A program made the translations under genes and the position numbers. From Candidatus Peribacteria bacterium (lineage in GTDB: Bacteria; Patescibacteriota; Gracilibacteria; Peribacterales; Peribacteraceae), in NCBI GenBank assembly GCA_943354555.1, contig CALRCM010000003.1, positions 1-58,789 on the forward strand: 58,789 bases of DNA, in the 5' to 3' direction. The notes under the pieces were generated by a model that was not told the DNA's origin, did not search any database, and worked only from the letters and a program-made list of their open reading frames with translations. Of this stretch, positions 943-37,618 are shown piece after piece. Every line of letters begins with the position of its first letter. Position 1 is the stretch's first letter.

Positions 943-1365
943 ATGCACGTCCCGCATCTCAGAAAAAAATTGAAGACCCTCAGCGTGATCATCCTGCTGA
1001 TGCTCGGTGTGGGAATCTTTTCTGGGATCAAGAGGCAATCATCCGATGAACCTCACATCGAGTACTTCGATGTAGACAGTGCAACCTTCGTGTCGCAAAC
1101 AAAATACATCAAGCGCATGGAGGTCTGGATGGTGCCCACAAACGCAAAGCAGGAGAGTGACTGGAAAACCATCGGAATCATGCAGAGGTCTTCGCACTGG
1201 TTTCGTTCCGCTACGTGGATATTGCCGATCCCCGAAAAGCCCGTCGCTGCGACGCAAATCATGGTGCGCGGGTACGATGAAGCGGGCATAGAAGCGGACA
1301 GGGTTTCGCTGCCGTGGATTGGGGAGAAGACATTGAAGAAGAAGATATGGAAAATTGAGAATTGA
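943..1365 (+). CDS. Hypothetical membrane-anchored protein
   Basis: N-terminal TM helix (LSVIILLMLGVGIFSGI); C-terminus runs into a 7-mer repeat. Confidence 0.55.
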   Translation: MHVPHLRKKLKTLSVIILLMLGVGIFSGIKRQSSDEPHIEYFDVDSATFVSQTKYIKRMEVWMVPTNAKQESDWKTIGIMQRSSHWFRSATWILPIPEKPVAATQIMVRGYDEAGIEADRVSLPWIGEKTLKKKIWKIEN

Positions 1366-1386
1366 GAATGGAGAATGGAGAATTGG
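1351..1386. repeat. Tandem 7-mer arm, left of four-helix-bundle gene
   Basis: AAAATTG AGAATTG AGAATGG AGAATGG AGAATTG G. Confidence 0.85.
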
Positions 1387-1436
1387 GTGTACGATTGTAC
1401 ACTTGTATTTCTGGATACAGCATAGATATTTGATCT

Positions 1437-1799
1437 ATGCAGAAGCCAAATGTCATACGTGATAAATCCTTCCGCTTTGCGGTTCTCGCAGTAAAACTTG
1501 CGCAAGGGATTGTAGACCAGCAGCGTGAGTACGTTCTGAGCAAACAATTCATAGCATCTGCCACAAGTATTGGTGCAAATGTTGAAGAAGGACTGCAGGG
1601 ACAAAGTCGAAAAGACTTTATTTCCAAGATGTCGATTGCACTCAAAGAGGCTTATGAAACTCGTTACTGGCTTCGCTTAATGTTCGAAACAAATCTAGGT
1701 AACCGACAACGCGTCATTGAACTTGGACACGATGTATCGGAGCTAATTTTAATCCTTGCAAGCATTGTCAAAACTTCGAGAACAGGAAAACGAAAATAA
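1437..1799 (+). CDS. Four helix bundle protein (23S rRNA intervening-sequence protein / S23-Avd-like family)
   Basis: MQKPNVIRDKSFRFAVLAVKLAQGIV...LSKQFIASATSIGANVEEGLQGQSRKDFISKMSIALKEAYETRYWLRLM: hallmark of the TIGR02436/S23 family. Confidence 0.9.
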   Translation: MQKPNVIRDKSFRFAVLAVKLAQGIVDQQREYVLSKQFIASATSIGANVEEGLQGQSRKDFISKMSIALKEAYETRYWLRLMFETNLGNRQRVIELGHDVSELILILASIVKTSRTGKRK

Positions 1800-1800
1800 T

Positions 1801-1831
1801 TCTCCATTCTCAATTCTCCATTCTCAATTCC
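1801..1831. repeat. Tandem 7-mer arm, right of four-helix-bundle gene, inverted relative to 1351-1386
   Basis: TCTCCAT TCTCAAT TCTCCAT TCTCAAT. Confidence 0.85.
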
Positions 1832-3396
1832 TCCAGCGCCCTCTTCGCATCCTCCTCAAGAGGACTTGAAGCAACAGCTCTCTCATACGCCTGCATCGCC
1901 AACTCTCTCTTCCCCTGCGCGCGCAATATCTGCCCCACGTTGTACCACGTCGTCGCATCATCGCGAATCTGCAGGGCTTTACTGTATGCCTGCAATCCCT
2001 CATGTAATCTTCCTCTGCGTACTTCCTCTGTGCCGATGTTACTCCATGCAACGTACGCTCTCGGTTGCGCCTCACTCACATGCGTGAATAGTGTCAGCGT
2101 ATTTTTCCAGACAAGAGATTGTTTATAGGAAAGGACTGAGAAGACGAAGAGGACGAAAAAGACGGTGCTACTGGTAAGAACTGGGAGCTTACGGAACACA
2201 TAAAAGATCAGAAATACAACGACGATCAATAGTCCTATAGAAGGGAGATACGCATACCGGTCCGTCGTTATGTAGATATCGAGCAACTCATTATGCCCCT
2301 TCGTAATATTGGAAAACGATGGAGCGAGGAGCAGCAGGAACCATCCCCACGCGAAGAGCGGCAAACGTACTCCCCTCCTTGCTGCACACGAGAGAACAAC
2401 AACAGAGACGAAGAGGGCGAAAAGGACGGAAAGGAAAAGCTCTGGAGTGAAGAGAGAAACGGGCTTAGTAAATGGATACAGCGCGGAAAGGCCCGAAGGC
2501 CAGAAGAATTTTTGCAGCAGCAGAGTGATCGCGCGGCAACCCATCAGAAATTTTTCGTAGAGGAAGCCCGTATTCGCGATTTTCCCGCCAAGCGCGATGA
2601 TGCCGAAGATCAGAGAAAGAATAGCAAACGGCAGAGCGCGCTTAACGCTATCAGCCGCAGGCGTCCCCACCTTAGGCACAGGCGCTATATACCAATCCAT
2701 AAGCACCATCAGCACCGGCCATGTGATGACAGAAACCTTGGAGAGAAGTGCAAGGAGAAACATCAATACACTCAACCAATACATACCATTCCAAATCTGT
2801 GTCACGCTGAGTAGCGCCGCCGGCCCTGGTTCGATACGTCCTTCGCCAAGCTCAGGACTACTCACCATGACACTGCGGCGCGTATCGAAGCGCGATCGCA
2901 AATAACAGAGCACCGTCAGCAAAAAGAAAAATGCACTCAGCACATCCTTTCGCGCAGCGGCCCAGACGACGGCTTCGGTATGGAGGGGGTGGACGGCGAA
3001 AAGCAATCCGGCGATTATTGAAAATTGAAAATTGAAAATTGAAAATAATTTTCCATTTTCAATTTTCAATTTTCCATTCGGCAATCTGCCAATAATCATT
3101 GCAACCAAAACCGCATTGGATATGTGTAGCAGTAGGTTGCCGAGGTGGTACCCAAACGGCTGCAGCCCCCCGATCATGTAGTTGATCTGATAACTAAGGA
3201 ACGTCAGTGGGATATACAGCTCCGGATCGTACGACGTAAAGGCAAGCCATAGATTGTGAAATGACAGACCTCTGATGATCGGGTTTTCTGTAATAAGCAG
3301 TCCGTCATCCCATGTGACAAAGCCATTGCCTAGTGATTGTCCGTATACAATAAAAGTCAGAACAATAATGCCAAGAATAAGATTAGGGCGAACCAT
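1810..3396 (-). CDS. TMTC-like polytopic membrane protein with C-terminal TPR repeats
   Basis: FVTWDDGLLITENP...YDPELYIPLTFLSYQINYMIGG...LFAVHPLHTEAVVWAAARKDVLS; TPRs near C-term; paralogous to 42560-44509. Start placed at MVRPNL (3396). Confidence 0.8.
   Translation of the reverse strand: MVRPNLILGIIVLTFIVYGQSLGNGFVTWDDGLLITENPIIRGLSFHNLWLAFTSYDPELYIPLTFLSYQINYMIGGLQPFGYHLGNLLLHISNAVLVAMIIGRLPNGKLKIENGKLFSIFNFQFSIIAGLLFAVHPLHTEAVVWAAARKDVLSAFFFLLTVLCYLRSRFDTRRSVMVSSPELGEGRIEPGPAALLSVTQIWNGMYWLSVLMFLLALLSKVSVITWPVLMVLMDWYIAPVPKVGTPAADSVKRALPFAILSLIFGIIALGGKIANTGFLYEKFLMGCRAITLLLQKFFWPSGLSALYPFTKPVSLFTPELFLSVLFALFVSVVVLSCAARRGVRLPLFAWGWFLLLLAPSFSNITKGHNELLDIYITTDRYAYLPSIGLLIVVVFLIFYVFRKLPVLTSSTVFFVLFVFSVLSYKQSLVWKNTLTLFTHVSEAQPRAYVAWSNIGTEEVRRGRLHEGLQAYSKALQIRDDATTWYNVGQILRAQGKRELAMQAYERAVASSPLEEDAKRALEELRMEN
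2799..2888. repeat. Palindromic element inserted in frame in the TMTC-like gene
   Basis: GTGTCAcgcTGAGTAG (2799-2814) / CTACTCAccATGACAC (2858-2873); TCGATACG (2831-2838) / CGTATCGA (2881-2888). Confidence 0.7.
3017..3079. repeat. 63-nt inverted 7-mer element (9 x 7 nt) inserted in frame in the TMTC-like gene
   Basis: 4x ATTGAAA, ATAATTT, TCCATTT, 2x TCAATTT, TCCATTC; encodes NGKLKIENGKLFSIFNFQFSI. Confidence 0.85.
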
Positions 3397-3566
3397 CTTC
3401 AATACTCTAACAGGTGGCGGGGCCCCGCGCGCTACGGGGGGTGAAGGGGAAGGCCCTGCTCTGCGCCGCAGCGCTGTCGAGATGGAAACGCCGAATCCTT
3501 GTAGGCGTTTCCAGCGAGACGCAGGGCCGAGCGGAGGAGAGTTGGCGCGCGGAGAGTTTTTCTTTC

Positions 3567-3601
3567 CCCCTTTCTTTTGTCTGGCTGACAAAAGAAAGGG
3601 G
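3567..3601. other. Perfect 15-bp inverted repeat with 5-nt loop
   Basis: CCCCTTTCTTTTGTC tggct GACAAAAGAAAGGGG. Confidence 0.8.
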
Positions 3602-3633
3602 ATATTGAAAGCATAGCCAAATATGCTTCACTC

Positions 3634-3673
3634 TTGACGATACAAATTAGCACTCTATAATTCCGACTGCTAA
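3634..3673 (+). promoter_or_regulatory. groESL promoter with overlapping CIRCE (HrcA) operator
   Basis: TTGACG-N16-TATAAT (3634-3661) and TTAGCACTC-N9-GACTGCTAA (3647-3673; CIRCE with one mismatch). Confidence 0.9.
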
Positions 3674-3740
3674 CGGAGCATTTTGTTCTCCGTTCCGGCC
3701 ATTTCTTCAGCACTTCTTTACCCTTTTCTCCTTAAGCTCT

Positions 3741-4073
3741 ATGGCAAAAGACGATGTCCAACTCGCGACGAACCTTCACCCGATCGGTGACCGCGTGGTT
3801 GTGAGACCACTCGAAAAAGAACAGGTCACTGCCTCCGGCATTGTGATTCCGGACACTGCAAACGGCGAAAAGCCACAGGAAGGTGTTGTCGTTGCTCTCG
3901 GTAAAGGAGGTGTGGGAAAAGACTGTAGTAACCCCACGGACTTCCTCAAAGTTGGCGATAAAGTCCTCTTCGGCAAGTACGCCGGTGACGACGTGAAGCT
4001 CAAGGACAAATCCGGAAAGGACGTTGAAGTGAAGATCCTTCACCTCGACTCCGTCCTCGCCATCGTAAAATAA
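3741..4073 (+). CDS. groES: Co-chaperonin GroES
   Basis: NLHPIGDRVVVRPLEKEQVTASGIVIPDTA...LFGKYAGDDVKL. Confidence 0.97.
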   Translation: MAKDDVQLATNLHPIGDRVVVRPLEKEQVTASGIVIPDTANGEKPQEGVVVALGKGGVGKDCSNPTDFLKVGDKVLFGKYAGDDVKLKDKSGKDVEVKILHLDSVLAIVK

Positions 4074-4132
4074 TTTCGAATCCTTTCTGCCTTTCCTGCC
4101 TTACTTTTCTACCTTTCTAACCTCTCGTCATT

Positions 4133-5767
4133 ATGGCCAAGCAACTCATCTTCGGAAATGAAGCCCGTCAGAAAATCTTCGCAGGAGTCTCTCAGCTCGC
4201 AGCAGCAGTGCGCGCAACGATGGGCCCCAAGGGCCGCAACGTCGTCATCGAAAAGAAATACGGTGGACCGACCGTCACGAAAGATGGTGTCACCGTCGCT
4301 AAGGAAATCGAGCTCGAAAACCCGTGGGAGAACATGGGCGCTCAGCTCGTGAAGGAAGCAGCAACCAAAACCAATGATGCCGCTGGTGACGGAACGACAA
4401 CGGCTACCGTCCTCGCACATGCCATCATGGAGGAGGGCCTCAAGCACTTGAGTGCAGGCTCCAATGCTATCTCCATCAAGCGCGGTATCGACAAAGCGGT
4501 GAAGGCCGTCAGCGATCATCTGGAGAAGATCAAAAAGAATGTTTCCAAGAAAGAAGAGTACGCAGCGGTTGCAACGATCTCCGCACAAGATGAAGAGATC
4601 GGCGAAGTGATCTCGGAAGTCTTTGCCAAGTTCGGAAGCGGCGGAGTATTTACCGTGGAGGCCGGCCAGACACTCGGCATCGAAAAGGAATTTGTCGAAG
4701 GAATGCAGTTCGATCAGGGATTTATCTCTCCGTACTTCGTCACGGATACTGCGAAGATGGAAGCGTCATTTGAAAACCCATACATCCTTATTACGGATAA
4801 GAAAATCAGCTCCATTCAGGAGATTCTTCCCGTACTCGAGGCACTCGCCCAGCGCGGACGGAAAGAGCTTGTGATCATCGCGGAAAGCGTCGATGGCGAA
4901 GCGCTGGCAACACTGGTCGTGAATAAACTCCGCGGTACATTCACCACCCTTGCCATCAAGGCTCCTGCCTTCGGTGACCGCCGCAAAGAGATCCTCAAAG
5001 ATATCGCGATCCTTACAGGAGGCCGCGTGATCTCTGAGGAAGTCGGTTTGAAGCTCGAAAATGCGACCATCGATGATCTCGGAAAGTCCCGCCGCGTCAT
5101 CGCAGACAAAGACAATTGCACGGTGATCGGCGGAGCCGGAAAGAAGAAGGACATCGAGGACCGCGTAAACGAGATCAAAGTCCAGATCGAAAACACGAAA
5201 AGTGACTTCGATAAAGACAAACTCATGGAACGCCTCGCGAAGCTCTCCGGAGGTGTCGCCGTCATCAAAGTCGGTGCCGCTACGGAAGTGGAGCAGAAGG
5301 AGAAGCAGCACCGTGTGGAAGATGCGCTTGCAGCGACCCGCGCGGCCTCCGAAGAAGGCATCGTCGCCGGAGGAGGCACAGCCTACATACGGTCACTGCC
5401 AATGCTTGAAAAGCTTCACAAGGATACGAAGGACAAAGACGAGAAGCTTGGCATCGAGATCATCATGAATGCGCTCATCGCCCCCACCCACCACATCGCC
5501 CAAAACGGTGGTGTAAGCGGTGAAGTCGTCGTCACCAAGGTCAAAGACCTTACGGGAGACAACGGCTACAACGCGCTCACGGACAAGTACGAGGACCTCG
5601 TCAAAGGCATGGTCATCGACCCGAAGAAAGTCACGCGCTGCGCTCTCGAAAACGCCGCGTCAGTCGCTTCCATGTTCCTCACGCTTGAAGTCGGCATTAC
5701 GGATATCCCGAAGCCCGAACCTGCAATGCCCCAGATGCCAGGAGGCGGAATGGGCGGTGATTTCTAA
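4133..5767 (+). CDS. groEL: Chaperonin GroEL
   Basis: [34 protein letters not shown]...[16 protein letters not shown]-type tail. Confidence 0.98.
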
Positions 5768-5785
5768 GCCAAAAATGATCATAGG

Positions 5786-5813
5786 AAACAGGGGCAAAAT
5801 GCCCCTGTTTTTT
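5786..5813 (+). terminator. Rho-independent terminator of groESL
   Basis: AAACAGGGGCAaaaTGCCCCTGTTTTTT. Confidence 0.9.
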
Positions 5814-5838
5814 GTTAGGTTTAATTGATTATAGTGAA

Positions 5839-5855
5839 ACAAAATAGTATTTTGT
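5839..5855. promoter_or_regulatory. Perfect palindrome, candidate operator, 8 nt upstream of the 1439-aa ORF
   Basis: ACAAAATA-G-TATTTTGT; TATAGT-like -10 just upstream. Confidence 0.5.
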
Positions 5856-5862
5856 CACGCTT

Positions 5863-8800
5863 ATGCCTCGGGATTTACTCAGCTACAGATGGCAGGAAGA
5901 ATATGTATCCCATCCTCCAGAAGGAGAAAGATACGATGTCTGGCATTATCGGAGTCTTATACAACAAGCATGCAATCTGCCAAACAAGCCTCCTCACGAT
6001 TTGACTCCGGAAATTGCAGATGAGATCCGCTTTGTCCGCAATGACATTGCCATTGCACTACCAGAGAATTTCTCACGTCGTGATGCGTTCTCTCTTTTTC
6101 TGACACACGAAAATCCGATGGGAACGTACTACATGCTCGATGACTTGGGAGATATCGCCTATGATCAAGAAAAAGAATTAGCGGCGATCCAATCGAGTTC
6201 ATACTTGCCCGGATATTGGGACCTTGAACCCAAGGAATTGATGGACTCTTACCACCGGTCACTTGACCCTCAAAAGAAAAAACGCGAGGGATCCGTCGAC
6301 TTCCCGACAAATGACAGGGTGAGCATCCGCCTCGGTATCCGCCGAACGCAGAAGCCTGCACCTAAGCAGGTTGTCGAAGGACTCTTTTATGAGCAATTTT
6401 TTTCCGATGAATGGAATTGGGAGTACGGAGCGCCGCAGCTCTTTGCCGCAATTGAAAAAAATCTCGAGAGCAGAACAGTGACAGACGACCCGTTTGAATG
6501 GGTACAGGAACGGATTTCCATCGCTGCAGGGTACTCCATTCTCGGAGGCGGAAAAGAATGCTCACCCCCCTTCCTTGCGCAGGCCTACGAGCGCATGGCA
6601 TCAACGGTATGCAATGGCATACCAGTGGGACATGAGGAGTTTAGAGAATATGAGATCGGTGAAGAGGAGCAAAATCTTCTGATTGAATTGTATGGTCGCT
6701 ATGCATCTTCACTATCACCCGAGATGGTTGAATTCGTTATGGCGCACGCCGTCGTCCTTACACCACAAATCCTGCGTGAGAGCGAGCACATCAAAAAATT
6801 TCTGACACACCTTCCCGAAATGCTTAGTAACGGTCTGAACATCGACAGGGTATTCGAGTATGCTATAGAACCCACAAAAGAAAGTGGGACCGGATTACAG
6901 CGACTGGAATCAGCCCTTCGCATGACCATGAGCATTTACCGCGGGGAAAAACCATGGTGGTTCAAAGAAGATTTCAGCATGAGCGAATGGCTACAGGAAG
7001 ACGACGGCCATGAAACAAACGGACGCCTGCGCCTGCACAATAACCAACTTGGCCGAGCAACGCTTGAGCGCATCGCTCAGAGGGCAGGTTTTGCTTTTAC
7101 CCACGTCCTGGAGCCCTACCACGCCGTAGGGTACCGCATGGGATCCCTACCACCGTTCACGGAAGAGGATGCGATTGATTTCACCGCATTTGTCACAGAA
7201 CACTATGGTATCGGCAACCGCAGGCGTTCCATCGAAGTGATTCGAAATTGCCTCTATATCCTGGAACAGGAAGCACTCCCACTCCGTCATGAGCGCCTCA
7301 AAAACCTGCGTGAGCACCTCGATGAAGTGAAGCCGCAGACACACACGATTGGCCGACTGGAAGCGCGCGATCCGGTCTTCGAAATGCCGGGCGTCCATGT
7401 GCTTACGGCGACGATGCTGCGGAGAAGCCTTGCGGAAAGCATGGAAGTCCATGATCTACGCATCGGTTTTGACATACTCGAGGCGATCGACGAGAAATTT
7501 CAGGAACCTCTTGAGGTTCGGGCACGGACGTACGCTCCGGCACTTCCATCTCATCTTGCTAACATGCAACGAAGAGGGCTTCTCATCAACCAGTCTCCGG
7601 AAGCGCGACTGGCGCTGCCGATTCCCGAAGGCCATCTCCTTGCAAATGTTGAACGCAGGAATCCGTCACTTGGGATTTTTGATTTTTACGCGCAACTCAA
7701 ACAGGAGTGTGGACAAGTCAACCGTGACGTCGCAAAAATCTATTTCCAGCATTGTGCTGCGCGGATGCCCGACCCCTGGCACCCTCCAAAAGGTTTTTTA
7801 CGCTTCCTTGAGCTTTTCGATTTCATCAACACGCCGGGATGGCGCTTCACCGCAATGGAGCATCCCCGGGACCGGCCCAAGGTCTCCGAACAAAATCAGC
7901 GCCGCGAAGTAGCAAAGCAGATGCTCGTCTCCAACATGCTGGATGCCTGGATCATGGGGCTTCTCACCAGTGAAGAACTGGAAGCGCTCTGCAGATGGAT
8001 AACAGCGGAACTAACCGACGAAGAACGCATCGAAATCGAGAAGGATGTGCTGTGGAGCCAAAACGATGATTTGGCGAAGCTCAATCTCCCTTTACCTCCA
8101 CCGGTGGCTGAGGATGAACCGGAGGACATAGAATTATTGACACACGGCAGGATCTCATCCTATATGCGCAGACAGCTTCGCCGTCCGCTTCCTCCAAAGC
8201 CCGTGCCTACGGAGGAGGAACGCGAACAAGAGGCGATGGAGCGGTTGGAAATGAATGTGCGGTCAGAGTGCCAACAGCGTGAGCAAAGGATCCGGTCACA
8301 GAGAATGGTGGCACTCCAGGAAACGTTCACCATGCTCAGCGTGCTCAACAGCATGGCAATTGCAGGATCCTTCAGCATCGCCGAATTGCGCTCTGTGCTC
8401 CGTGAAACTGTGCTCCCTGCCGCCATCAGAGGCGCAGACCAGGGCACGGGAGAAGTACACGCCATACAGCAAGGGGCAATGCTAACAAACCTCGTTCGAA
8501 TGCAGGAACTTGGGGGCATCGATCACCAGGGGTTCCGGTCAGCAATCGAAGGAAGCGCAAGCCCGGAGGAAGCACGGAAAACAGCTTACGACTTCATCCA
8601 ACAAGTGCTTCTGCGTTGCATGGAGGAATCCCTCAACGAAGCCCTGCCAAATGCCATCAATACAGTGACAAGTGTGATGAAAGCACATGCCGGCAAGCCG
8701 GATACAGCGGAAGGAGCACTTGCACGCGCGGTAGGCCAGGCCCGCAAAGATTTGGAAACAGAGCTGCGACGCATTTGGAATGATGCACCATTTGCCGCAC

Positions 8801-10182: not shown

Positions 10183-10191
10183 CTCTCTACT

Positions 10192-11046: not shown

Positions 11047-13755
11047 ATGGTTCGCGCTCCTGTAAGATTATCCTCCATTGTTGCCTTAGCTCTTAGCCTC
11101 GGCATCATCGCCCCGGCATTGGCGTTCTCCGATGTCTCATCGAAGACTCCCTATAACCGCGCGATCAATGCGCTGCAGGAACAGGGTGTAGTGGAAGGAT
11201 ATGGAGACGGATCATTTAAAGCAGCAGCCCGTATCAACCGTGCAGAGTTTTTGAAGATCGTCCTCGAAAGCCGTGGTGATATCGCAGATCTGAAGAATTG
11301 TTTTCCAGATGTGAAGGATCAGTGGTTTGCAAACTATGTCTGTAGCGCAAAATCAGAGGAGATCGTCGCGGGATACCCAGACGGGACATTTAAGCCGGAG
11401 CAGGAGATCAACTTTGTCGAAGCAAGCAAAATTCTCGCTCTCGCCTACGGTCAGACCATCGAAGCAAACTCTCCGGACTGGTACGAGCCCTATGCACGCG
11501 CATTGGAATCTTCCTCGGCAATCCCACCCTCTATCAATGGTCTTGATCAACGATTGAATCGTGGAGAAATGGCCGAGATGATGTGGAGACTGAGTAGCGA
11601 CATACAGGATCAGCCGACGAAGGGCTACATCAATGTGAAGTACCCCGAGGTGCAGGTAAATCTTGCGAGCTATGTTCCGCAAATGGCGAAGTCCTGTGTC
11701 GATCTGCGCGCATTCACGGAAGAGGCAGGTCGCAGTGCAGGAGGATACGGAACAGACATGATGATGCGCGAAGGCACAATGGCTCCGGCATCCGGCGCAC
11801 CCATGAACGACAGCGGCGAGTCCAACACGAAATCCGCGGATTACTCGGAAACAAACGTTCAGGTCGAAGGTGTCGATGAAGGAGATATCGTCAAGACTGA
11901 CGGCGAATATCTCTATATCGTCCGTAATCAGGAGATCCGCATCGTGGACGCGACGCCGGCAAGTAATCTGCGCAATGTCGCAACGATTGCCGTGGATGAT
12001 GCGTCATTCTCCCCGACCGATCTCTATGTCGAAGGCGATCGCCTCGTCGTCATCGGCACCACGTGGGAAAATGGCGGCGGCAAAGTACGGATCATGGAAG
12101 ATTTAGGAACGAGGAACCAAGAACTAGCTACGAAGATGGCCTCGATGATCTGGCCTGGGCCATGGTACAACCGCTCGTACACAACCGTAAAAATCTATGA
12201 TGTGAGTGACGCTGCGAATCCAAAGCTCTCCCGCACGGTCTCCTTCGAGGGATCTTCCGTAAGCACACGCCGCATAGGTGACAAGCTCTACGTCGTTGTA
12301 AACCAATCTCCCCGCTACTGGGGTGGATTCGACAGGCTCACCACAGGTGGCCCGATGCCGATGGGTACTGCGATAAAAGAAGCAGATCTTGTGCCGACCA
12401 TCAAAGATTCTGCAAAAGGCGATACCGCAATGCCTGCAGTCGGCTGCAACGACGTCATGATTCTTCCAAGAGTCCCCTCCCCGAGTTACCTCATTGTCGG
12501 TGTTGTTCCTTTGAACAACAGCACAGGAGAAGTACAACGGACAGCAATCCTCGGCAATGGAGAGAATGTCTACGCCTCACTGGAGAATCTCTACGTCGCT
12601 GCGACAGACTGGCAGTACGCATGGAACAATGCGGTAGAAAATGCATCGCAGCAGCGCACGCGTCTCTATCGTTTTGCCTTCACGAGCGATGGCGCCAAGT
12701 TCCAGGCACAAAGCCAGGTTCCTGGGCGTATTCTCAATCAATTCTCTATGGATGAGGCTTCGACAGGGCTCAGCCTGACACCCTACTTCCGCATCGCAAC
12801 GACCATCGACGAACAGTGGATGGCCAATAACACGTCACGCGCATCCAGCAACAATCTCTACGTGCTGAATCGTGACATGGAGACAGTGGGATCACTCGAA
12901 GACCTCGCTCCGGGTGAGAAGATCTACTCGACTCGGTTCCTCGGCGACCGCGCCTATATGGTCACGTTCCGTACGATCGATCCGCTATTTGTCATCGATA
13001 CGTCTGATCCAAGAAATCCCAAGATTCTCGGCAAGCTGAAGATCCCGGGATATAGCGATTATCTGCACCCGTACGATGAGAACCACATCATCGGATTTGG
13101 GAAAGACGCTGAAGCCTCTAAGGATGGAACGTTTGCGTGGTACTTGGGCATAAAAGTCGCGCTGTTTGATGTCACCGATGTGGCAAACCCGAAGGAGCTG
13201 CACAAGATCGCAATCGGCGACCGCGGGACGGAAAGTCCACTCCTCCACAATCACAAAGCACTGCTGTTTGACCGCGAAAGAGATCTCCTCGCGTTTCCAG
13301 TAAATATCCATAAGATCAGCGACGCCCAAAAGCAAACGGGCGAACAAGCAATGGCCTACGGCGAACCCGTTTTCCAAGGTGCACAGGTCTATACACTCAC
13401 TCTCAAAGACGGCTTCAAGCTCCGAGGACAGATCACACATTACTCAGACACCGATTGGCAGAAGGCAGGAAGCTATGTGTATGGCAAAGACATTGAACGA
13501 ATTATCCGCGTTGGCGACTCGCTCTACACCACTTCGCAATGGGGCGTAGTGAGCGCCACCGAAGACACGGTAAAGAAAGAGGGATCAGTACCCTTCGATA
13601 TCCCGTCGCCTGTCTCTGGCGGATCGTGCCCGGACGAATCTGATCCCAACGTACACTACGTAAGCAAGGATCCGGACGAATGCATGCGCGTGCGATTCTC
13701 ATGCATCCCCGGTACAGAAGGATTCAGTGATATGTGCGGGTGCGGGTGTAAGTAA
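11047..13755 (+). CDS. Secreted SLH-domain protein with C-terminal beta-propeller domain
   Basis: Signal peptide at MVRAPVRLSSIVALALSLGIIAPALAFSDV; SLH repeats (INALQEQGVVEGYGDGSFKAAARINRAEFLKI...); VEGVDEGDIVKTDGEYLYIVRNQEIRIVDA propeller family (COG4880-like). Confidence 0.85.
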   Translation: MVRAPVRLSSIVALALSLGIIAPALAFSDVSSKTPYNRAINALQEQGVVEGYGDGSFKAAARINRAEFLKIVLESRGDIADLKNCFPDVKDQWFANYVCSAKSEEIVAGYPDGTFKPEQEINFVEASKILALAYGQTIEANSPDWYEPYARALESSSAIPPSINGLDQRLNRGEMAEMMWRLSSDIQDQPTKGYINVKYPEVQVNLASYVPQMAKSCVDLRAFTEEAGRSAGGYGTDMMMREGTMAPASGAPMNDSGESNTKSADYSETNVQVEGVDEGDIVKTDGEYLYIVRNQEIRIVDATPASNLRNVATIAVDDASFSPTDLYVEGDRLVVIGTTWENGGGKVRIMEDLGTRNQELATKMASMIWPGPWYNRSYTTVKIYDVSDAANPKLSRTVSFEGSSVSTRRIGDKLYVVVNQSPRYWGGFDRLTTGGPMPMGTAIKEADLVPTIKDSAKGDTAMPAVGCNDVMILPRVPSPSYLIVGVVPLNNSTGEVQRTAILGNGENVYASLENLYVAATDWQYAWNNAVENASQQRTRLYRFAFTSDGAKFQAQSQVPGRILNQFSMDEASTGLSLTPYFRIATTIDEQWMANNTSRASSNNLYVLNRDMETVGSLEDLAPGEKIYSTRFLGDRAYMVTFRTIDPLFVIDTSDPRNPKILGKLKIPGYSDYLHPYDENHIIGFGKDAEASKDGTFAWYLGIKVALFDVTDVANPKELHKIAIGDRGTESPLLHNHKALLFDRERDLLAFPVNIHKISDAQKQTGEQAMAYGEPVFQGAQVYTLTLKDGFKLRGQITHYSDTDWQKAGSYVYGKDIERIIRVGDSLYTTSQWGVVSATEDTVKKEGSVPFDIPSPVSGGSCPDESDPNVHYVSKDPDECMRVRFSCIPGTEGFSDMCGCGCK
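12105..12132. repeat. Single 7-mer arm inside the SLH/propeller CDS
   Basis: AGGAACG AGGAACC AAGAACT AGCTACG. Confidence 0.5.
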
Positions 13756-20172: not shown

Positions 20173-20200
20173 CCGTAACCCGTAACCCGTAACCAGCAAT
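20173..20200. repeat. Single 7-mer arm in purF leader
   Basis: CCGTAAC x3, CAGCAAT. Confidence 0.6.
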
Positions 20201-26273: not shown

Positions 26274-26310
26274 AATGGGCAGCGGAGGAATGAGGAAGGA
26301 GAACGAAGAA

Positions 26311-26391
26311 AGAGAAGTAAGAGAAATAAGGGATGTACGGGAAAAAAGGGATATCCCTTTAATCCCTTATTTCCCTTATTTCTCTTCTTGC
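26311..26391. repeat. 81-nt inverted 9-mer element (9 x 9 nt) between prfA and downstream gene
   Basis: AGAGAAGTA AGAGAAATA AGGGATGTA CGGGAAAAA AGGGATATC CCTTTAATC CCTTATTTC CCTTATTTC TCTTCTTGC. Confidence 0.85.
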
Positions 26392-26393
26392 CG

Positions 26394-27842: not shown

Positions 27843-28985
27843 ATGAAAATTCTCGTTGCCCTCTCCGGCGGTATAGATAGCTCTGTCGTTGCACATCTGC
27901 TCAAGCATGCGGGGCATGAACTGATCGCTGTGCGATTCCTCCTCTGGACGGATCCGCTAGCCCCTGCGCTTGCGGAAATCCTCCCCAGTAAGTGCTGCAC
28001 GACACAGAACGCGATGCGCGCGCAGAAGGTCGCAGAAACTCTGGGAATCCCCTATCACATCGTTGATCTCAGTGAGGAATTCAAGCGAACGGTCGTGGAC
28101 CCGTATCTTGAAAGTCACCGTAAGGGTCTTACGCCCAATCCCTGCATTGGCTGTAACCGCACGATCAAGTTCGGAAAGCTGATCGATCTCATGAAGGAGT
28201 ACGGATGTGAAAAACTGGCAACGGGACATTATGCGAGGATTGGGAATGAACCGTTGCACGTTGCAGGTTACAAAGAAACTCTTTGCAACCTGCAACCTGC
28301 AACTTGCAACAAATCAAACCGTTATGCTCTTCTCGAGGCCACAGATAAATCCAAAGACCAAAGCTATTACCTCTATGGACTCACGCAGGATCAGTTATCG
28401 CATTGCCTCTTTCCCCTCGGAGCAATGCAAAAATCGGAAGTGTATGCCCTCGCAAAGGAATTCTCTGTGCCGTTCGACGACACTTCCTACCGCGAAAGTC
28501 AGGATCTGTGTTTCTTTCCGGAAAAGACTCCGGAAGCATTTCTCAAGAGGCATCTTCAGGACGCGCTACATCCTGGACCAATCATGAGAAGAGATGGATC
28601 CGTCGTCGGAGCGCATGAGGGACTACCACTCTATACCTTCGGTCAGAGACGCGGACTGAAGATCGGAGGACTCAAAATTCCCCTGGAAGTCGTAGCGAAA
28701 GACGCGAAAAGCAATGCTCTTGTGGTTGCAGATCGGGGTACGGAAGTACTCCATGAAGTAAAACTGAAAGATATTGTCTGGATCGGAGAAGGGCCTGCAG
28801 AGTCAGTGGACATCCCCCTTCAGTGCCGCACTCGATCCCTCTCAAGGAAGCTAGAAGGAACACTGCGCTATACGGGTAATTCAGGAATGTTTACGTTCGC
28901 AAATCCACAACCTCCGCAAAGCCCCGGTCAATCGCTTGTGTTCTACAAAAATGAGGAAATTGTGGGAGGCGGAATTATGCAGTAA
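27843..28985 (+). CDS. mnmA: tRNA-specific 2-thiouridylase
   Basis: MKILVALSGGIDSSVVAHLLKHAGHELIAVRF...LTPNPCIGCNRTIKFGKL...LATGHYARI...KDQSYYLYGL...RESQDLCFF. Confidence 0.95.
   Translation: MKILVALSGGIDSSVVAHLLKHAGHELIAVRFLLWTDPLAPALAEILPSKCCTTQNAMRAQKVAETLGIPYHIVDLSEEFKRTVVDPYLESHRKGLTPNPCIGCNRTIKFGKLIDLMKEYGCEKLATGHYARIGNEPLHVAGYKETLCNLQPATCNKSNRYALLEATDKSKDQSYYLYGLTQDQLSHCLFPLGAMQKSEVYALAKEFSVPFDDTSYRESQDLCFFPEKTPEAFLKRHLQDALHPGPIMRRDGSVVGAHEGLPLYTFGQRRGLKIGGLKIPLEVVAKDAKSNALVVADRGTEVLHEVKLKDIVWIGEGPAESVDIPLQCRTRSLSRKLEGTLRYTGNSGMFTFANPQPPQSPGQSLVFYKNEEIVGGGIMQ
28253..28310. repeat. Inverted 7-mer element inserted in frame in mnmA
   Basis: GTTGCAC GTTGCAG GTTACAA ... TTGCAAC CTGCAAC CTGCAAC TTGCAAC. 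Confidence 0.85.
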
Positions 28986-29154
28986 ATACTGCGAAGATTG
29001 CATTTTGTCTCCGGTATTTCCCCGTTCTTACTTTATCGCATACACTAGTGCATCCTGAGGCTTTTTCCGCTATACTATCACGATACCACTCGACCCCCAC
29101 CAGCATCGCGCAGAAGTACTTCCGGACGGCAGCATCGTACTTCCGGATATAGAC

Positions 29155-30399: not shown

Positions 30400-30428
30400 C
30401 AGGCAACAATAGGCTACAATACTCACGT

Positions 30429-30518
30429 GCCGCCGTGGTGAAATGGTAAACACGGGGGACTTAAAATCCCCTGCCCTCTTATAGGGGCTTGCTGGTTCAA
30501 GTCCGGCCGGCGGCACCA
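30429..30518 (+). tRNA. tRNA-Leu (TAA), CCA encoded
   Basis: Acceptor GCCGCCG/CGGCGGC, anticodon loop CTTAAAA, long variable arm, TTCAAGT, terminal CCA. Confidence 0.95.
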
Positions 30519-30663
30519 CGTAAAAACGCTCGCAGTGCGCTGCTCGCGTTCACGTGGCACCGCCACTAACTCTAAATACATATGAGCAAGCGAAAGCACG
30601 AGAAGCGTTTTTACGTGTCGCGTGGGACGTGGCGAACGTAGTGAGCTACGTCCTTTACGCGAC
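30517..30663. repeat. Nested inverted-repeat region abutting tRNA-Leu
   Basis: CACGTAAAAACGCt (30517-30530) / aGCGTTTTTACGTG (30604-30617); GTCGCGT (30617-30623) / ACGCGAC (30657-30663). Confidence 0.75.
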
Positions 30664-30721
30664 TTATGCAGCCGCTTCTCACTATTTTCTCTAGAATAGA
30701 ATTCCAATACAATCCTCCGCT

Positions 30722-30982
30722 ATGCATCACGTTTACCTTATCCAAAGCAAACCAAAAGGCATTTGGTATATCGGGTATACCTCTGACCTGAAACGCAGAC
30801 TAACTGAACACAAAGGTCACAAAAATGTTTCCACCTCAAAAGAAGCATCTTGGAAACTCATTTACTGCGAAACATATGTAAACAAGATGGATGCCCTTGG
30901 ACGGGAACGATTTTTAAAGAGTGGATCGGGGAGAAAATTCCTCAAAAAACAGTTGTTGCATTTTATTGCAGAAGAAGTATAA
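30722..30982 (+). CDS. GIY-YIG nuclease family protein
   Basis: HHVYLIQSKPKGIWYIGYTSDLKRRLTEHKGHKNVSTSKEASWKLIYCETY. Confidence 0.92.
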   Translation: MHHVYLIQSKPKGIWYIGYTSDLKRRLTEHKGHKNVSTSKEASWKLIYCETYVNKMDALGRERFLKSGSGRKFLKKQLLHFIAEEV

Positions 30983-30999
30983 AAAAATTCAAGATACTT

Positions 31000-31473
31000 T
31001 CACTCCACCATCCCAAGTCCATTCGGAAACATTTCAAGAAACTCATCACGAGCATCCTCATAACTCATATCCCCCAAATCCTCCGGAAAAAGAATAAGTT
31101 TGTCGGACAGCATCATTTCGCTATTGATCACTTCAATCTGTCCATCTGCTTTTACAAACGCAAAGCAGCCCAATGCATCGACCTCTGCACGGGTAAGCAA
31201 GACAGCCTGCGGAACCGTACCAGTATCAAGATCGACCCGCATAACCGGACACATCTGGTCACTAAAGAGATCATTAATATACGCAAACGGCAATGCATCC
31301 TGACTGATTTCACCGTGCTCCCTGCGCTCATGCAATCTTTGTTCGAGAGGATTGAGGGAAGTGAGCTCATGTATTTTTTCTCCGGTCGCAGCAGCGATCA
31401 ACTCTGTCTCATGAGCACCAGCAGGCACTGGTGGCACCTCTGACTGCTGCTGAACATCTAGAGAATCACCCAT
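31000..31473 (-). CDS. Hypothetical protein
   Basis: 157-aa ORF; antisense alternative (30850-31443) is less plausible. Confidence 0.5.
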   Translation of the reverse strand: MGDSLDVQQQSEVPPVPAGAHETELIAAATGEKIHELTSLNPLEQRLHERREHGEISQDALPFAYINDLFSDQMCPVMRVDLDTGTVPQAVLLTRAEVDALGCFAFVKADGQIEVINSEMMLSDKLILFPEDLGDMSYEDARDEFLEMFPNGLGMVE

Positions 31474-31528
31474 ATGATCATTATATCTTAATTTAACAAA
31501 TTATCAATATTATGCTATAATTATATAA

Positions 31529-32524
31529 ATGTCCACACAAACACTCAATATAGTAATCCCATGGTTCCGCACAAAAAAGAGGGGGGCATCACTCGGCTGG
31601 GGCGCTTTGGGAGTCGCTATCATTGCCAGTTCTACGTCGGTGACATTTGCCGCAGCACTTGCAGGAGCGCTGTCACCACTCTCCATGCTCTTCATCTCCG
31701 AAGCGCTTACAATGCTTTTCACCGTACTTTCCTTCGGACTGGTTCCGATTCTATCGAGGCTTGCACGCATCAAAAAGCAATTCTGGATGCCTCTGATCCT
31801 TATCGGCATAAGCAATAGCGTCATCGCGCCACTACTCGCATTTACAGGTATCCGGATGACAGGCCCCATCAATGCCGAGCTCTTTATCCGCGTCGAGGAT
31901 ATCGTCCTTCTTCTTCTTGCAATACTTGTACTCGGCGAGAAGATGAAACGGCAACACATCTTCGGAGCGGTATGCGTTCTCTTCGGCGTAACGATCGTCG
32001 TACTTCGCGGATTTTCGCAATCCATGTCGCTATCCGCAGGAGACGCCTACATCCTTATCGCAGCAGTCTTCTACGGCTGCGGAGGAATTCTCTACAAACG
32101 TTATCTTCATCATATTCCGCCAGAGATTGTCGTCTTTAGCAGGACATGCATAGGTCTATCAGCATTCTTCCTCGCATCACCCTTTCTCCACCATACACTC
32201 ATGCAGGAGCTCAAAGCATTTCCGATGGGACTCGTCGTCGCACTTGTTGGATACGGATTTGTCTCAAGATTTTTAAACCTCTTCTGCTTCTACGAAGCTA
32301 TGGACAGAATGCCCGTACGAACAGTCTCTCTCCTACTGAATCTTGGCATCATCGTTTCGATTGCCTTTGCCAATATCTACCTCGGTAGTCCCATTGAAGC
32401 ATTTCATATCGCCGGTGCAGGCTTTATTCTCATCGGATCCGTTCTTATGGAATTGGAATGTTTCTCCCGCCACAAAATCCACTTTGCGGCACACCTGAAG
32501 CATAAGCACAGGAGCCACGTGTAA
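31529..32524 (+). CDS. EamA/DMT-family transporter
   Basis: About ten TM helices; internal EamA-type duplication (INAELFIRVEDIVLLLLAILVLGEKMKRQHIFGAVCVLFGV). Confidence 0.82.
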   Translation: MSTQTLNIVIPWFRTKKRGASLGWGALGVAIIASSTSVTFAAALAGALSPLSMLFISEALTMLFTVLSFGLVPILSRLARIKKQFWMPLILIGISNSVIAPLLAFTGIRMTGPINAELFIRVEDIVLLLLAILVLGEKMKRQHIFGAVCVLFGVTIVVLRGFSQSMSLSAGDAYILIAAVFYGCGGILYKRYLHHIPPEIVVFSRTCIGLSAFFLASPFLHHTLMQELKAFPMGLVVALVGYGFVSRFLNLFCFYEAMDRMPVRTVSLLLNLGIIVSIAFANIYLGSPIEAFHIAGAGFILIGSVLMELECFSRHKIHFAAHLKHKHRSHV

Positions 32525-32529
32525 TGGGG

Positions 32530-32638
32530 TTGATTGGGCTCGTTGGGTTTATTGGGTTTATGGACAATATATTCAATGCATCTATTTCTTCGTAACCCAA
32601 AAAACCCAATAAACTTCATCAACACAACAAACCCACTA
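32530..32638. repeat. Inverted 9-mer element after the EamA gene
   Basis: TTGATTGGG CTCGTTGGG TTTATTGGG TTTATGGAC ... AACCCAAAA AACCCAATA AACTTCATC AACACAACA AACCCACTA. Confidence 0.8.
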
Positions 32639-33478
32639 TTCTCCGTACACCTCCTCCGCAAGCACGATGATCTTTGCGATTTCTGCGCGATTGATAGAAT
32701 CGTTTGGACCGAATGCACCCGTAGCGCTGCCATTCGCATCGGTATAACCGCCGACAATGTGATCCTCGTGGGCGGTGATGATAGCAGAGCGAAACTCTGA
32801 AGAGCTGTCCACGTCGCTGAAGGGACTTGCATCGGAATCACGGAATGTCACTCCATAAGCCTGCAGGACAGTGACGACAACTTCGGCTCGATTTGCGGGA
32901 CGAGTAGGTTCAACCGATCCATCGGCAAATACCGTCCAGTGCAGCGTCTCTGCACAGCGCAAGTACTCCTCAGACCATGTCCCCTTCGCCGCTGTATTGA
33001 GAATAGTTTTTGCACATGCACTACGATCAATACCAGCGGCTACGCTCACAATCTTGGCAAGTTGTTCGATCGTAACAGAATCCGCAGGACCAAACAGTCC
33101 AAGTGGCCTGCCATCTTCACTGCGGTATCCGGAAATAATTCCGCTGTCTGCTGCGGCGCGCACGTATGGTGCAAACCAACCATCACGTGGTACATCCGAG
33201 AGATCGACGGAAACACCGTCAATACGAATTTGCACAAACGGCGAATCACCTACATCCCCTGAGGTACGGTCTACCTCTACGGTCGATGCATCAACGGGCA
33301 GAAGATCTGACGAGGAGAGATCTTTGCGATCGCCTGTATCCCAATCGGCCTGCTGATCCATACGGAGCAGATCCTCGTCGAAACGATCAATATCATCTAC
33401 AAGATACTCCAGAGAGTCAGCTGCAAAGGAAAACGTAGTCGGAATACATACCAATAGGGCAATTGCAAGGAGGCGCAT
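32636..33478 (-). CDS. Secreted SLH-domain protein
   Basis: Signal peptide MRLLAIALLVCIPTTFSFAA; SLH motifs GIISGYRSEDGRPLGLFGPADSVTIEQLAKIV and HIVGGYTDANGSATGAFGPNDSINRAEIAKII. Confidence 0.85.
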   Translation of the reverse strand: MRLLAIALLVCIPTTFSFAADSLEYLVDDIDRFDEDLLRMDQQADWDTGDRKDLSSSDLLPVDASTVEVDRTSGDVGDSPFVQIRIDGVSVDLSDVPRDGWFAPYVRAAADSGIISGYRSEDGRPLGLFGPADSVTIEQLAKIVSVAAGIDRSACAKTILNTAAKGTWSEEYLRCAETLHWTVFADGSVEPTRPANRAEVVVTVLQAYGVTFRDSDASPFSDVDSSSEFRSAIITAHEDHIVGGYTDANGSATGAFGPNDSINRAEIAKIIVLAEEVYGE

Positions 33479-33504
33479 ACAGAAGTGTATGCACGAACCG
33501 AGTA

Positions 33505-33539
33505 AATTTTCCATTTTCTATTTTGCATTTTCCACTTCC
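33505..33539. repeat. Single 7-mer arm between SLH gene and carB
   Basis: AATTTTC CATTTTC TATTTTG CATTTTC CACTTCC. Confidence 0.75.
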
Positions 33540-33559
33540 TACACTAGGCTTGGCCAGAC

Positions 33560-36500
33560 ATGATCGAGCAAAAGGACGCCGGCTCCCAGGGCGCCCGTCA
33601 GGGCGGGGGGAGAGCGTTTTCCCATATCCGGACAATTCTGCTTCTGGGATCCGGCGCTCTCAAGATCGGAGAGGCAGGAGAATTTGACTACTCCGGAAGC
33701 CAAGCGATCAAAGCATATAAAGAGGAGGGGCTCAGGGTTGTCCTCATCAATCCGAATATCGCCACAAATCAGACAAGCTGGGGACTTGCCGATCGCGTCT
33801 ATTTTGAGCCAGTGACGCCCGCTTTTGTTGAGCGGATTATCGCCATCGAAAAACCTGAAGCGATTGCACTCAGCTTTGGTGGGCAAACCGCTCTCAACTG
33901 CGGCGTCGCTCTCGATGCTCAGGGCACGCTACAAAAATACGGTGTAGAAGTACTGGGAACGTCTGTCGAAAGCATCCGAAAAACGGAAGACCGTGCACTC
34001 TTCAATGCTGAGCTCAAATCTATCGGCGTAGATGTTCCGCGATCATACGCCTGCACCACACTCGATGAAGCCATGCAGGCAGGAAGGACTATCGGATGTC
34101 CGGTTATCGTCCGGGCCGCATACGCACTAGGAGGCAAGGGCAGTGGCAGAGCCATGAACGAAGAAGAACTACGGGATCTCTGCAAAATCGCGTTTGTAGA
34201 GTCTCCACAAGTTCTCGTAGAGGAAGATCTCACAGGATGGAAAGAGATCGAGTACGAAGTTGTACGGGACTCTGCAGATAACTGCATCACCGTCTGCAAC
34301 ATGGAAAACGTCGACCCACTGGGAATCCACACCGGAGAATCCATCGTTGTAGCGCCCAGCCAGACACTCGATAACGAGGATTATCAGATGCTTAGGAGCA
34401 TCGCTCTCAAGGTCATCCGTCATCTCCGTATTGTCGGTGAATGTAATATTCAATACGCGCTCGATCCGAAATCGCGGACGTATCGCGTCATCGAAGTGAA
34501 TGCACGACTCAGTAGAAGTTCTGCTCTGGCATCAAAGGCTACCGGTTATCCGCTAGCATTCGTCGCAGCGAAGCTAGGAATTGGCTACCTGCTACCCGAG
34601 ATCCGCAATGCGATTACGAAGACAACGTGTGCGGACTTCGAACCATCTCTCGATTACGTTGCGGTAAAAATGCCGCGCTGGGATCTCCAGAAATTTCGTT
34701 TTGTGTCCGATCAGGTGACGAGTGAAATGAAATCCGTCGGTGAAGTCATGGCGATAGGACGATCCTTTGAAGAGGCACTGCAAAAAGCCATTCGGATGCT
34801 CAACATAGGTGCTGACGGACTTTTCCATACCAAATTTATCTTCAAGGATCTCACGGCGGAAGTGAAGCGCCCAACTCCACGACGCATCTTCGCTGTTGCA
34901 GAGGCGCTTAGCGGCGAGTGGAATCCAGAGGAGACATCCATCGCCACTGGTATCGACCGTTGGTTTTTAGAGCGCATACATGCATGTGCAAAGCATCTGA
35001 AGCAGATGACCAAAGCCGGTGAGTCGATACCTCCTGATATGTTGCGGAAAGCCAAAATGATGGGTTTTTCAGATCGATCCATTGCGAGTTGCACCGGCAT
35101 AGATCCCGAAGCACTACGGACCAAGCGCATTGGCCTTGGCATAACACCGGTTGTAAAACAAATCGATACACTTGCGGGAGAATTCCCGGCCCAAACGAAT
35201 TACCTGTACCTGACATACCATGGAACGGAGCATGATGTGTGTTTCGATACAGACCAGTTGCGGGTTACGAGTTGCGGGTTACGAGATAAACTAGCAACGA
35301 GCAACCAGCAACCCGAAACTGTCGTTGTTCTCGGCGGCGGTCCGTATTCCATCGGATCTTCGGTAGAATTCGACTGGTGTTGTGTGCAAGCGACTCATGA
35401 ACTTCAGCGGCAAGGAAAGTTCGTCGCGATGATCAACAGCAATCCTGAAACTGTCAGTACGGATTTTGATGAATGTGACATGCTCTTCTTCGATGAGCTC
35501 ACCGACGAGCGAGTGCGTGATATTGCAGATCTTCTGCACCCTGAAGGGGTTGTGGTCTCCATGGGCGGACAGATTCCAAACTCTCTGGCTCCGAAGCTTG
35601 CATCTGCGGGAATTCCCATCCTCGGAACAGCCCCGAAAGATATCGACCGTGCTGAAGATAGACATAAGTTCTCTACCCTCCTCGATGAACTGCAGATAGA
35701 CCAACCAGCTTGGCAGGAATTTTCCGACCTGCGCTCAGCAGTGGCATTCGCGCAAAGTGTGGGTTACCCCGTCATCGTCCGACCGAGCTACGTGCTTTCT
35801 GGTGCATCCATGGCAGTCGTACATACGGATGCCGACCTAGAGGAATACATCAGTCTGTCCGCATATGTAAATAAGGAAGCCCCAATCGTCGTCTCAAAGT
35901 TTGAAGTGGGAGCGAAAGAGATCGAGCTCGATGGAGTTGCACAGAATGGAAAACTCCTGATCTACGCAGTTGCCGAGCACGTCGAGAATGCCGGCGTGCA
36001 TTCGGGCGATGCAACTATCGTCCTCCCACCTCAACGGGTAAACCTTGAGACGTTGCGACAAATCAAAACGGTAGGAAAGAATATTGCTGCAGGACTTTGC
36101 ATCTCCGGACCCTTTAACATCCAGTTCCTTGCAGTGAATAATCGGATCAAGGTTATTGAGTGCAATCTACGGGCTAGCCGCAGTTTTCCATTCGCGAGCA
36201 AGGTCACCGGAGAGAACTTTGCATCTCTTGCGACACAAGCACTCCTCGGTAAGGCTCCGACCGACCGACGCTACCAGACGCTGGATCTCGACCACGTCGG
36301 AGTAAAAGCAGCGCAGTTCAGTTTCTCCAGACTACGTGGAGCCGACCCACGTCTTGGCGTAGAGATGGCAAGCACAGGGGAAGTCGCTTGTTTCGGTCGA
36401 AATGCAGAGCAAGCCCTACTCACAGCCCTTCTTGCTGTTGGATTTACCATACCGAAGAAAAATATCCTTGTTACGGTCGGGCGCCTCGAGGATAAAGTGG

Positions 36501-36871
36501 AAATCCTCCCTGCATTGCTGTCGCTTTCCGAGCGCGGCTTTTGCTTCTTTGCTACGGCACGCACCCATGAATTTCTGGAATCCAGAGGGGTGACATCTGC
36601 CCTCCTCAACAAAGTGAGCGAACCCCGATCCCCCAACATCCGGGAATATCTCGAGATGCGCCGCATTGACCTTGTTATCAATATTCCCACGCATTCTACA
36701 ACCACCGAGCGCACGGACGGCTACTTTATCCGCCGCATGGCGACGGACCACGGCATTCCGCTTATTACCAACGTCCAACTTCTTAAACGCTTCGTTGAAG
36801 CCCTCATGCGCGAAGATCCTGAAAATCTCCCTTTGCTTGCCTGGCCGGATCTGCTGCATAGTGAAAGCTGA
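33560..36871 (+). CDS. carB: Carbamoyl-phosphate synthase large subunit
   Basis: [31 protein letters not shown]...[13 protein letters not shown]...[23 protein letters not shown]; both synthetase halves present. Confidence 0.97.
   Translation: [1103 protein letters not shown]
35257..35320. repeat. Inverted 7-mer element inserted in frame in the carB interdomain region
   Basis: GTTGCGG GTTACGA GTTGCGG GTTACGA ... AGCAACG AGCAACC AGCAACC CGAAACT. Confidence 0.85.
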
Positions 36872-36951
36872 AAGGGTACTGCTTTTACGACCAAACGGTT
36901 GCCTCGGTTAAAAACTCGCGTACAATCCCTCCGTTTTCTCCTTCTTTTTCC

Positions 36952-37554
36952 ATGCTCAACGACGACGATCTTCTCGATGATGAATCCCCTGCCCAGCAGG
37001 ACGAATCCTCTACATCCGATGGTGATGATGATATCCTCAGTGCCGGTGGAGCACCTGGAACGGCTCAGGGTGATGATGATCAGACACTCGTGACAAAGGA
37101 GGGCCTTAAGAAGCTCAAGGAAGAGCTCGACTATCTTAAAACAGTTCGTCGTGTAGAAGTATCTCAGCGCCTCAAGGAAGCAATCTCCTATGGAGATCTG
37201 TCGGAAAACTCCGAATATGAGGAAGCGAAGAACGAGCAGGCTTTTGTGGAAGGACGAGTCCTCGAGTTGGAGCTGAAAATCAAGAACGCCAAAATTATTA
37301 CAGAAAAGAAGCCTGACGCTAAACGCGGCAAGGAGATAGATATCGGCACCACCGTTACGGTCCGCAACCGCACCGATGGAGACGATCCCGAGACCTACAT
37401 CATCGTTGGCTCCACAGAGGCAGATCCTCTCGAGCACAAGATCAGCAACGAGTCTCCGATCGGTCGTGCACTTCTCGGAAAAGAGAAGGGTGATATCGTC
37501 GAAGTACCGACACCTGGGGGAAAGTTCCGCTATGAAGTACTGAAGGTCGCTTAA
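36952..37554 (+). CDS. greA: Transcription elongation factor GreA with acidic N-terminal extension
   Basis: LVTKEGLKKLKEELDYLKTVRRVEVSQRLKEAISYGDLSENSEYEEAKNEQAFVEGRV; first ~45 aa Asp/Glu/Ser-rich. Confidence 0.95.
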   Translation: MLNDDDLLDDESPAQQDESSTSDGDDDILSAGGAPGTAQGDDDQTLVTKEGLKKLKEELDYLKTVRRVEVSQRLKEAISYGDLSENSEYEEAKNEQAFVEGRVLELELKIKNAKIITEKKPDAKRGKEIDIGTTVTVRNRTDGDDPETYIIVGSTEADPLEHKISNESPIGRALLGKEKGDIVEVPTPGGKFRYEVLKVA

Positions 37555-37555
37555 T

Positions 37556-37618
37556 AGAGAACAGAGAAAAGAGAACTGAACCATCTCTTTTCTCTTTTCT
37601 CTATTCTCTATTCTCTTT
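37556..37618. repeat. 63-nt inverted 7-mer element (9 x 7 nt) after greA
   Basis: AGAGAAC AGAGAAA AGAGAAC TGAACCA TCTCTTT TCTCTTT TCTCTAT TCTCTAT TCTCTTT. Confidence 0.85.

Follow-up and report, generated by a model that had tools for sequence, protein, structure and literature searches.

Arrays and genes in the window

The window, the whole stretch of 58,789 nucleotides analysed here, is contig 3 of a 1.16-Mb draft genome, which belongs to the Patescibacteria (CPR) and not to the cyanobacteria. It contains a short gene enclosed by two inverted arrays of degenerate tandem units, as well as similar arrays that enclose no gene. The features are as follows.

1353..1384, plus strand: left end of the complete element, an inverted arm of period-7 units (AATTGAG/AATGGAG)
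1437..1799, plus strand: gene for a four-helix-bundle protein of 120 aa, PF05635 (23S_rRNA_IVP) and TIGR02436 profiles
1798..1829, minus strand: right end of the complete element, an inverted arm with 94% complementarity to the left one
3017..3078, unstranded: gene-less (solo) element of period 7, ATTGAAA, which ORF 1810-3591 (minus strand) reads through in frame
20173..20194, unstranded: single period-7 array, GTTACGG, directly upstream of purF, probably a remnant
26305..26386, unstranded: solo element, period 9, upstream of prfA
28252..28310, unstranded: solo element, period 7, GTTGCAG, in frame within mnmA
32527..32634, unstranded: solo element, period 9, TTGGGTTTA, between two convergent genes
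33506..33531, unstranded: single array, period 7, GGAAAAT, probable remnant
35256..35320, unstranded: solo element, period 7, GTTGCGG/GTTACGA, in frame within carB
37553..37623, unstranded: solo element, period 7, AGAGAAC, 3' end of greA

Of the loci reported in a first-pass annotation, the arrays with inverted partners at the sites that here start at 1353/1798, 3017, 26305, 28252, 32527, 35256 and 37553 and the single arrays at 20173 and 33506 are real. The single arm that the annotation had placed at 12105-12132 escaped both TRF (score 30) and a detector of period 7, 8 or 9 arrays and falls below threshold in both. When an inverted partner within 200 nt was required, the detector found five closed elements in the window. 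In 200 order-3 Markov shuffles it found 0.015 on average and never more than 1. Shuffled sequence of the same composition does not reach the density of the window and a chance origin of the arrays is ruled out. The 1353/1798 pair, with its arms 413 nt apart, and the 35256 element, which has weaker pairing, are additional to these five. The unit sequence differs from locus to locus, and the first-pass annotation was therefore right that the arrays are not copies of one insertion sequence. It had also been claimed that some elements are exactly nine units long; the exact count is only approximate, while an arm of about four units at periods 7 and 9 holds in the larger sample described below.

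The first-pass annotation overlooked that the 1353 and 1798 arms bound a single element and that a gene lies between them. Both arms contribute to the neighboring reading frames. The stop codon of ORF 943-1365 is a TGA within the left arm, and the last codons and the stop of ORF 1810-3591 on the minus strand come from the right arm. The arms fold strongly as RNA. An Rfam scan of the window returned two tRNAs only and no rRNA. Upstream of these features, positions 346-843 (plus strand) encode a formaldehyde-activating enzyme, Fae (PF08714, E 3e-73), which is unexpected in a Patescibacteria genome.

The four-helix-bundle protein

The 120-aa product matches PF05635 (23S_rRNA_IVP/S23) with 80.6 bits, where the curated cut-off is 33.8, and TIGR02436 with 93.4 bits, where the cut-off is 24. 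Its AlphaFold2 model has four helices and a mean pLDDT of 93. The closest solved structure in a Foldseek search is 2RLD (BT_0352, 47-49% identity), followed by 2GSC (XCC0516) and then by the DGR protein Avd (8UB7 and 4DWL, TM about 0.75). Model and search agree on a four-helix bundle as in 2RLD and 2GSC. These two S23-family structures have five chains each, and the X. campestris family protein has been described as a homopentameric toroid (PMC4990558). PF05635 is present in 44 of 59 relatives, with up to 21 copies per genome, and the query protein has no match in phage records.

Inverted arms flank the gene in many bacteria

Arms were scored by the inverted match between the two flanks of a gene, and a score of at least 14 was counted. 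Among the relatives, 72 of 91 PF05635 genes lie between inverted degenerate tandem arrays, compared with 1 of 92 control genes; the remaining 19 have no arms above this threshold. The best period is 7 in 38 genes, 9 in 21 and 8 in 12. The same score was reached at 50 of 80 named loci from Patescibacteria lineages, Bacteroidota, Pseudomonadota, Bacillota, Planctomycetota, Spirochaetota and others; these loci had been selected for their resemblance to a single protein clade, and the sample is biased in this respect. At 37 of 56 named loci a TAG core is repeated with a spacing of 7 bp (2.8 with shuffled arms), and at period-7 loci typically 4-6 of the 7 unit positions are fixed within one locus.

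Cyanobacterial plasmids carry such genes as well. Ten of 12 four-helix loci score above all 40 shuffles, most of them by a wide margin, and their units (TAGGGAG, AACAGGG, AGTCAGG) are STRR-like heptamers in inverted arrays around the gene. The relevance of cyanobacterial STRR heptamers, which had been raised from the window alone, is borne out by these plasmid genes. On plasmids of Pseudanabaena and Anabaena, four-helix elements lie between cas6 and cas4 in CRISPR loci (L232, L233). The single-gene four-helix element is found in more than a dozen bacterial phyla.

The arms track the protein

On a tree of 88 proteins, period 9 requires 2 changes compared with 18.4 when shuffled, and all periods together require 15 compared with 32.4 (0 of 200 shuffles), with a clustering that crosses genera. 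Arm similarity increases with protein similarity (r=0.37, 0 of 2000 permutations). The strand composition is also consistent. In the inward reading direction, 115 of 133 upstream arms contain more G than C (C makes up 9.6%), and 19 of 21 solo elements show the same bias. Period-7 arrays have a median length of 30-31 nt and period-9 arrays one of 35-37 nt. Both correspond to about four units, and array length therefore scales with period; period-8 arms are shorter, at 3.1-3.4 units. A ring that binds one unit per subunit would account for this scaling, and it is likely that the four-helix protein recognizes the arms. Because protein clade predicts repeat period and core, a protein-DNA (or protein-RNA) recognition code that can be read from genomes is predicted.

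Solo elements and orthologous sites

Comparison of orthologous sites between relatives revealed variation in both presence and sequence. At the carB site (window 35256), G002, G003, G006, G008 and G012 carry other units in the same linker, and G004, G009 and G011 have no element. Upstream of prfA (window 26305) four congeners have other sequences, three of which are other tandem-unit palindromes. The 32527 site has no element in G004 and a different period-7 element in G002. At the 3' end of greA (window 37553) a period-8 element is found in G003 and none in G001, G002 and G004. The mnmA site (window 28252) has different palindromes in four congeners and none in G005, G006 and G008. Unit, period and presence of the gene-less copies all vary between congeners, and the condition under which the first-pass annotation would have been refuted, loci shared by all close relatives, does not apply. 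The annotation was also right that, from locus to locus, the unit varies under a conserved periodicity and symmetry. Solo elements inside genes are read through in frame, as in ORF 1810-3591, mnmA and carB.

Two of these sites have further peculiarities. At the mnmA site, G001, G002 and G004 (L053 11550-11610, L058, L059) carry a palindrome of another kind, CCTCCGTAGCGGAG...CTCCGCTACGGAGG, and the heptamer elements of the window and G003 lie exactly where this palindrome is found. The site may be a permissive loop, or one palindrome may have inserted into another. The G003 locus orthologous to 32527 (L055 14140-15572) has about 1.4 kb of extra DNA with a 459-codon ORF, which by eye resembles an AAA/STAND ATPase and has a P-loop-like motif.

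The density of solo elements was estimated from sampled stretches of genomes. Genomes with a four-helix gene have 46 closed solo elements in 533 kb sampled. In the 336 kb sampled from genomes that lack the gene there are 13, all of low complexity: 12 AT-rich matches in G046 and a single match in G026. The difference has a Mann-Whitney p of 0.0007 with the low-complexity matches included, and gene-less copies are essentially confined to sampled genomes carrying the gene. About 8 of the 46 clearly match the unit of a gene-carrying element in the same genome (e.g. G002/L106, G007/L080, G023/L020). With a subset of gene copies sampled, own-genome unit matching is borderline overall, as 260 of 5000 permutations reach the observed value.

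Slippage and template switching had been put forward as one generating process. As a purely generic cause this does not fit, since period and unit track the protein phylogeny and gene-less copies are essentially confined to gene-carrying sampled genomes; within an element, such a process may still explain unit turnover.

Filled and empty sites

Near-identical cyanobacterial plasmids provide filled and empty versions of the same site, with flanks that are 97-99% identical. Some near-identical plasmid queries matched only themselves. Site A is filled in Trichormus variabilis and Scytonema and empty in Nostoc linckia and Tolypothrix PCC 7601. GTAAT occurs once in the empty version and on each side of the insert in the filled one, a clean 5-bp duplication. 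At site F, in two plasmids of Nostoc ATCC 53789, TTCTA is duplicated (5 bp), and site G has a near-duplication, TAATG/TTATG. At sites C and D, 11-16 bp are replaced with no clean duplication. The element at site A and that at site D share 83% identity along their length, and the DNA around them is unrelated. Within each plasmid insert, the four-helix gene between its arms is the only gene annotated. The earlier suggestion that mobilization is involved is supported by these empty sites and 5-bp duplications. At site A of Nostoc C052 (L244 820-1010), a heptamer array is followed by what appears to be a decayed four-helix gene, a possible route from full to solo element.

Profile searches at E<=0.001 found neither reverse transcriptase nor Y1 transposase in G011, G017, G039 and G053, which have 7-9 four-helix genes each. 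RVT_1 is absent from G000, where no reverse transcriptase with template/variable repeats was found. These results suggest DNA movement that uses no known transposase, the families surveyed being reverse transcriptase and Y1. The reverse transcriptase matches in G044 and G055 contain 5-14 in-frame TGA codons, which suggests a recoded stop codon in parts of the class.

A probable minimal mobile element

The association of gene and arms, the coupling of period and unit to protein phylogeny, the precise presence or absence between near-identical flanks and the two clean 5-bp duplications together point to a mobile element whose only gene encodes a predicted ring-forming protein. There is good support for minimal mobile elements of this kind as a real and widespread class. 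The window probably holds members of such a family of very small elements, in which one S23/IVP four-helix gene is combined with inverted arms and the scattered palindromes are gene-less copies. Several findings count against this. No near-identical copies, as expected from recent bursts, were seen at different places of one genome; 11-16 bp are replaced at sites C and D; the match of solo units to gene-carrying units of their own genome is borderline overall; and 19 of the 91 genes have no arms above the threshold.

A complete element is about 0.4-0.5 kb long, with an S23/IVP-type gene between two inverted arrays. Each arm has about four degenerate units of 7, 8 or 9 bp with a fixed core and variable positions, the G-rich strand pointing inward. 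The solo palindromes would be non-autonomous (MITE-like) copies or remnants of the complete element. In the proposed mechanism the protein, whose solved relatives form pentameric rings, would bind the units of both arms as iterons, and the bound ring may bring the element ends together and thereby enable copying or insertion. Gene-less copies would be served in trans by the four-helix protein. The arm sequences presumably diverge by unit turnover in step with their protein; such joint turnover would give each lineage its own unit while the architecture is kept.

A more ambitious form of this proposal, which we put forward only tentatively, is that the four-helix ring acts as a transposase or integration factor of a new kind, with each subunit reading one unit of the tandem iterons on the inverted arms. 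No smaller autonomous mobile elements would then be known; they would occur across much of the bacterial tree and would be the common origin of the 23S rRNA intervening sequences (IVS), cyanobacterial STRR and other orphan heptamers.

Alternatively, the element could be selfish at the RNA level, with arms that pair into a stem cleaved by RNase III, as in the 23S rRNA IVS, and a protein that acts like Avd, and move as an RNA-protein particle by reverse transcription. The structural match to DGR Avd (8UB7, 4DWL; TM about 0.75), the strong RNA folding of the arms and the cleavage of the Coxiella IVS at its heptamers by RNase III (PMC4990558) are consistent with this, and the variable target ends (5-bp duplications, 11-16 bp replacements) would suit target-primed insertion. 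We nevertheless consider it unlikely, as many multi-copy genomes (G011, G017, G039, G053 and the single-contig G032) have no reverse transcriptase domain at E<=0.001, which leaves dependence on a reverse transcriptase or DGR unsupported.

Less probable again is that the four-helix protein is a passenger or autoregulator and that an unrelated transposase, for example of the Y1/RAYT type, moves the inverted arrays. RAYT-REP systems do mobilize small palindromes in trans, and one Y1_Tnp gene (L129 1339-2060, G035 contig 6) lies between inverted TTGGTCA heptamer arms. It is the sole one, since inverted arms flank only 1 of 22 Y1 loci. Y1_Tnp is absent from several carrier genomes and the period follows the tree of the four-helix protein, so RAYT/Y1 is rejected as a general driver.

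The weakest explanation, already disfavored and very improbable, requires no mobile element and has slippage and template switching make palindromic arrays anywhere, kept as terminators or neutral linkers; it would fit the concerted, imperfect arms, the frequent position at gene ends or in permissive loops and the different units at the same site between congeners, but not the tie of the arrays to one gene family (72/91 vs 1/92), the coupling of arms to four-helix protein phylogeny, the near absence of solo copies from genomes that lack the gene or the precise insertions with target duplications.

Comparison with known systems

The 23S rRNA IVS is a known relative of the small mobile element in the window. 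The IVS of Coxiella encodes S23p and is cut by RNase III, and three tandem GACAGAT heptamers, variable in copy number, lie directly upstream of its ORF (PMC4990558). The IVS of Coxiella and Leptospira share with the present element the protein family, a length of about 0.43 kb and an ORF in an inverted-repeat stem loop; in the window copy, too, the ORF is enclosed by inverted repeats able to form a stem. They differ in that the IVS has been described in rRNA helices, whereas the present element occurs throughout genomes and plasmids, the window copy lying between protein genes and not inside a 23S rRNA helix. The present element also has solo derivatives, periods of 7-9 and protein-specific units. 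The open-access IVS literature notes heptamers, and no generalization was found there. Likewise, no description of the general element was found in a search of open-access papers.

The DGR accessory protein Avd has the same fold (TM about 0.75) and is a nucleic-acid-binding pentamer. Avd works with a reverse transcriptase, whereas the present elements carry no such gene. MITEs, REPIN-RAYT and the Rickettsia palindromic elements are also small palindromes, some in frame within genes, and RAYT acts in trans. The present ends differ from these in being degenerate tandem iterons whose sequence is specific to each copy, and the protein is not an HUH transposase. As in MITEs, terminal inverted repeats are present, but units differ between loci in place of many near-identical copies in the genome. 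The REPIN-RAYT arrangement, a Y1/HUH transposase flanked by palindromes, was seen at 1 of 22 Y1 loci.

The cyanobacterial STRR are repeats of unknown function that possibly affect transcript stability (PMC2670836). They share period-7 tandem heptamers with the window loci and with the arms of the plasmid four-helix genes, and no link of STRR to a gene or to mobility was found in the open-access literature. In Xanthomonas (GGGAATC) and Nostoc (GGGGAYT), G-rich heptamers, mostly of four units, with 70-75 inverted pairs per Xanthomonas genome, have been read as G-quadruplex repeats and reported with no mobile-element association (PMC4692102). The four-helix family is represented in X. campestris by XCC0516. 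TAACTGA heptamer repeats have been described in Beggiatoaceae (PMC4679880). It is plausible that STRR and the Beggiatoaceae and Xanthomonas heptamers are parts of the same family, of which the cyanobacterial link is the one tested. Several previously unexplained repeat families would then be linked, and the S23/IVP 'hypothetical' proteins, the rRNA IVS, the STRR heptamers and the inverted heptamer pairs found elsewhere would have one testable explanation, which predicts a mechanism of mobility that employs neither a recognized transposase nor a reverse transcriptase.
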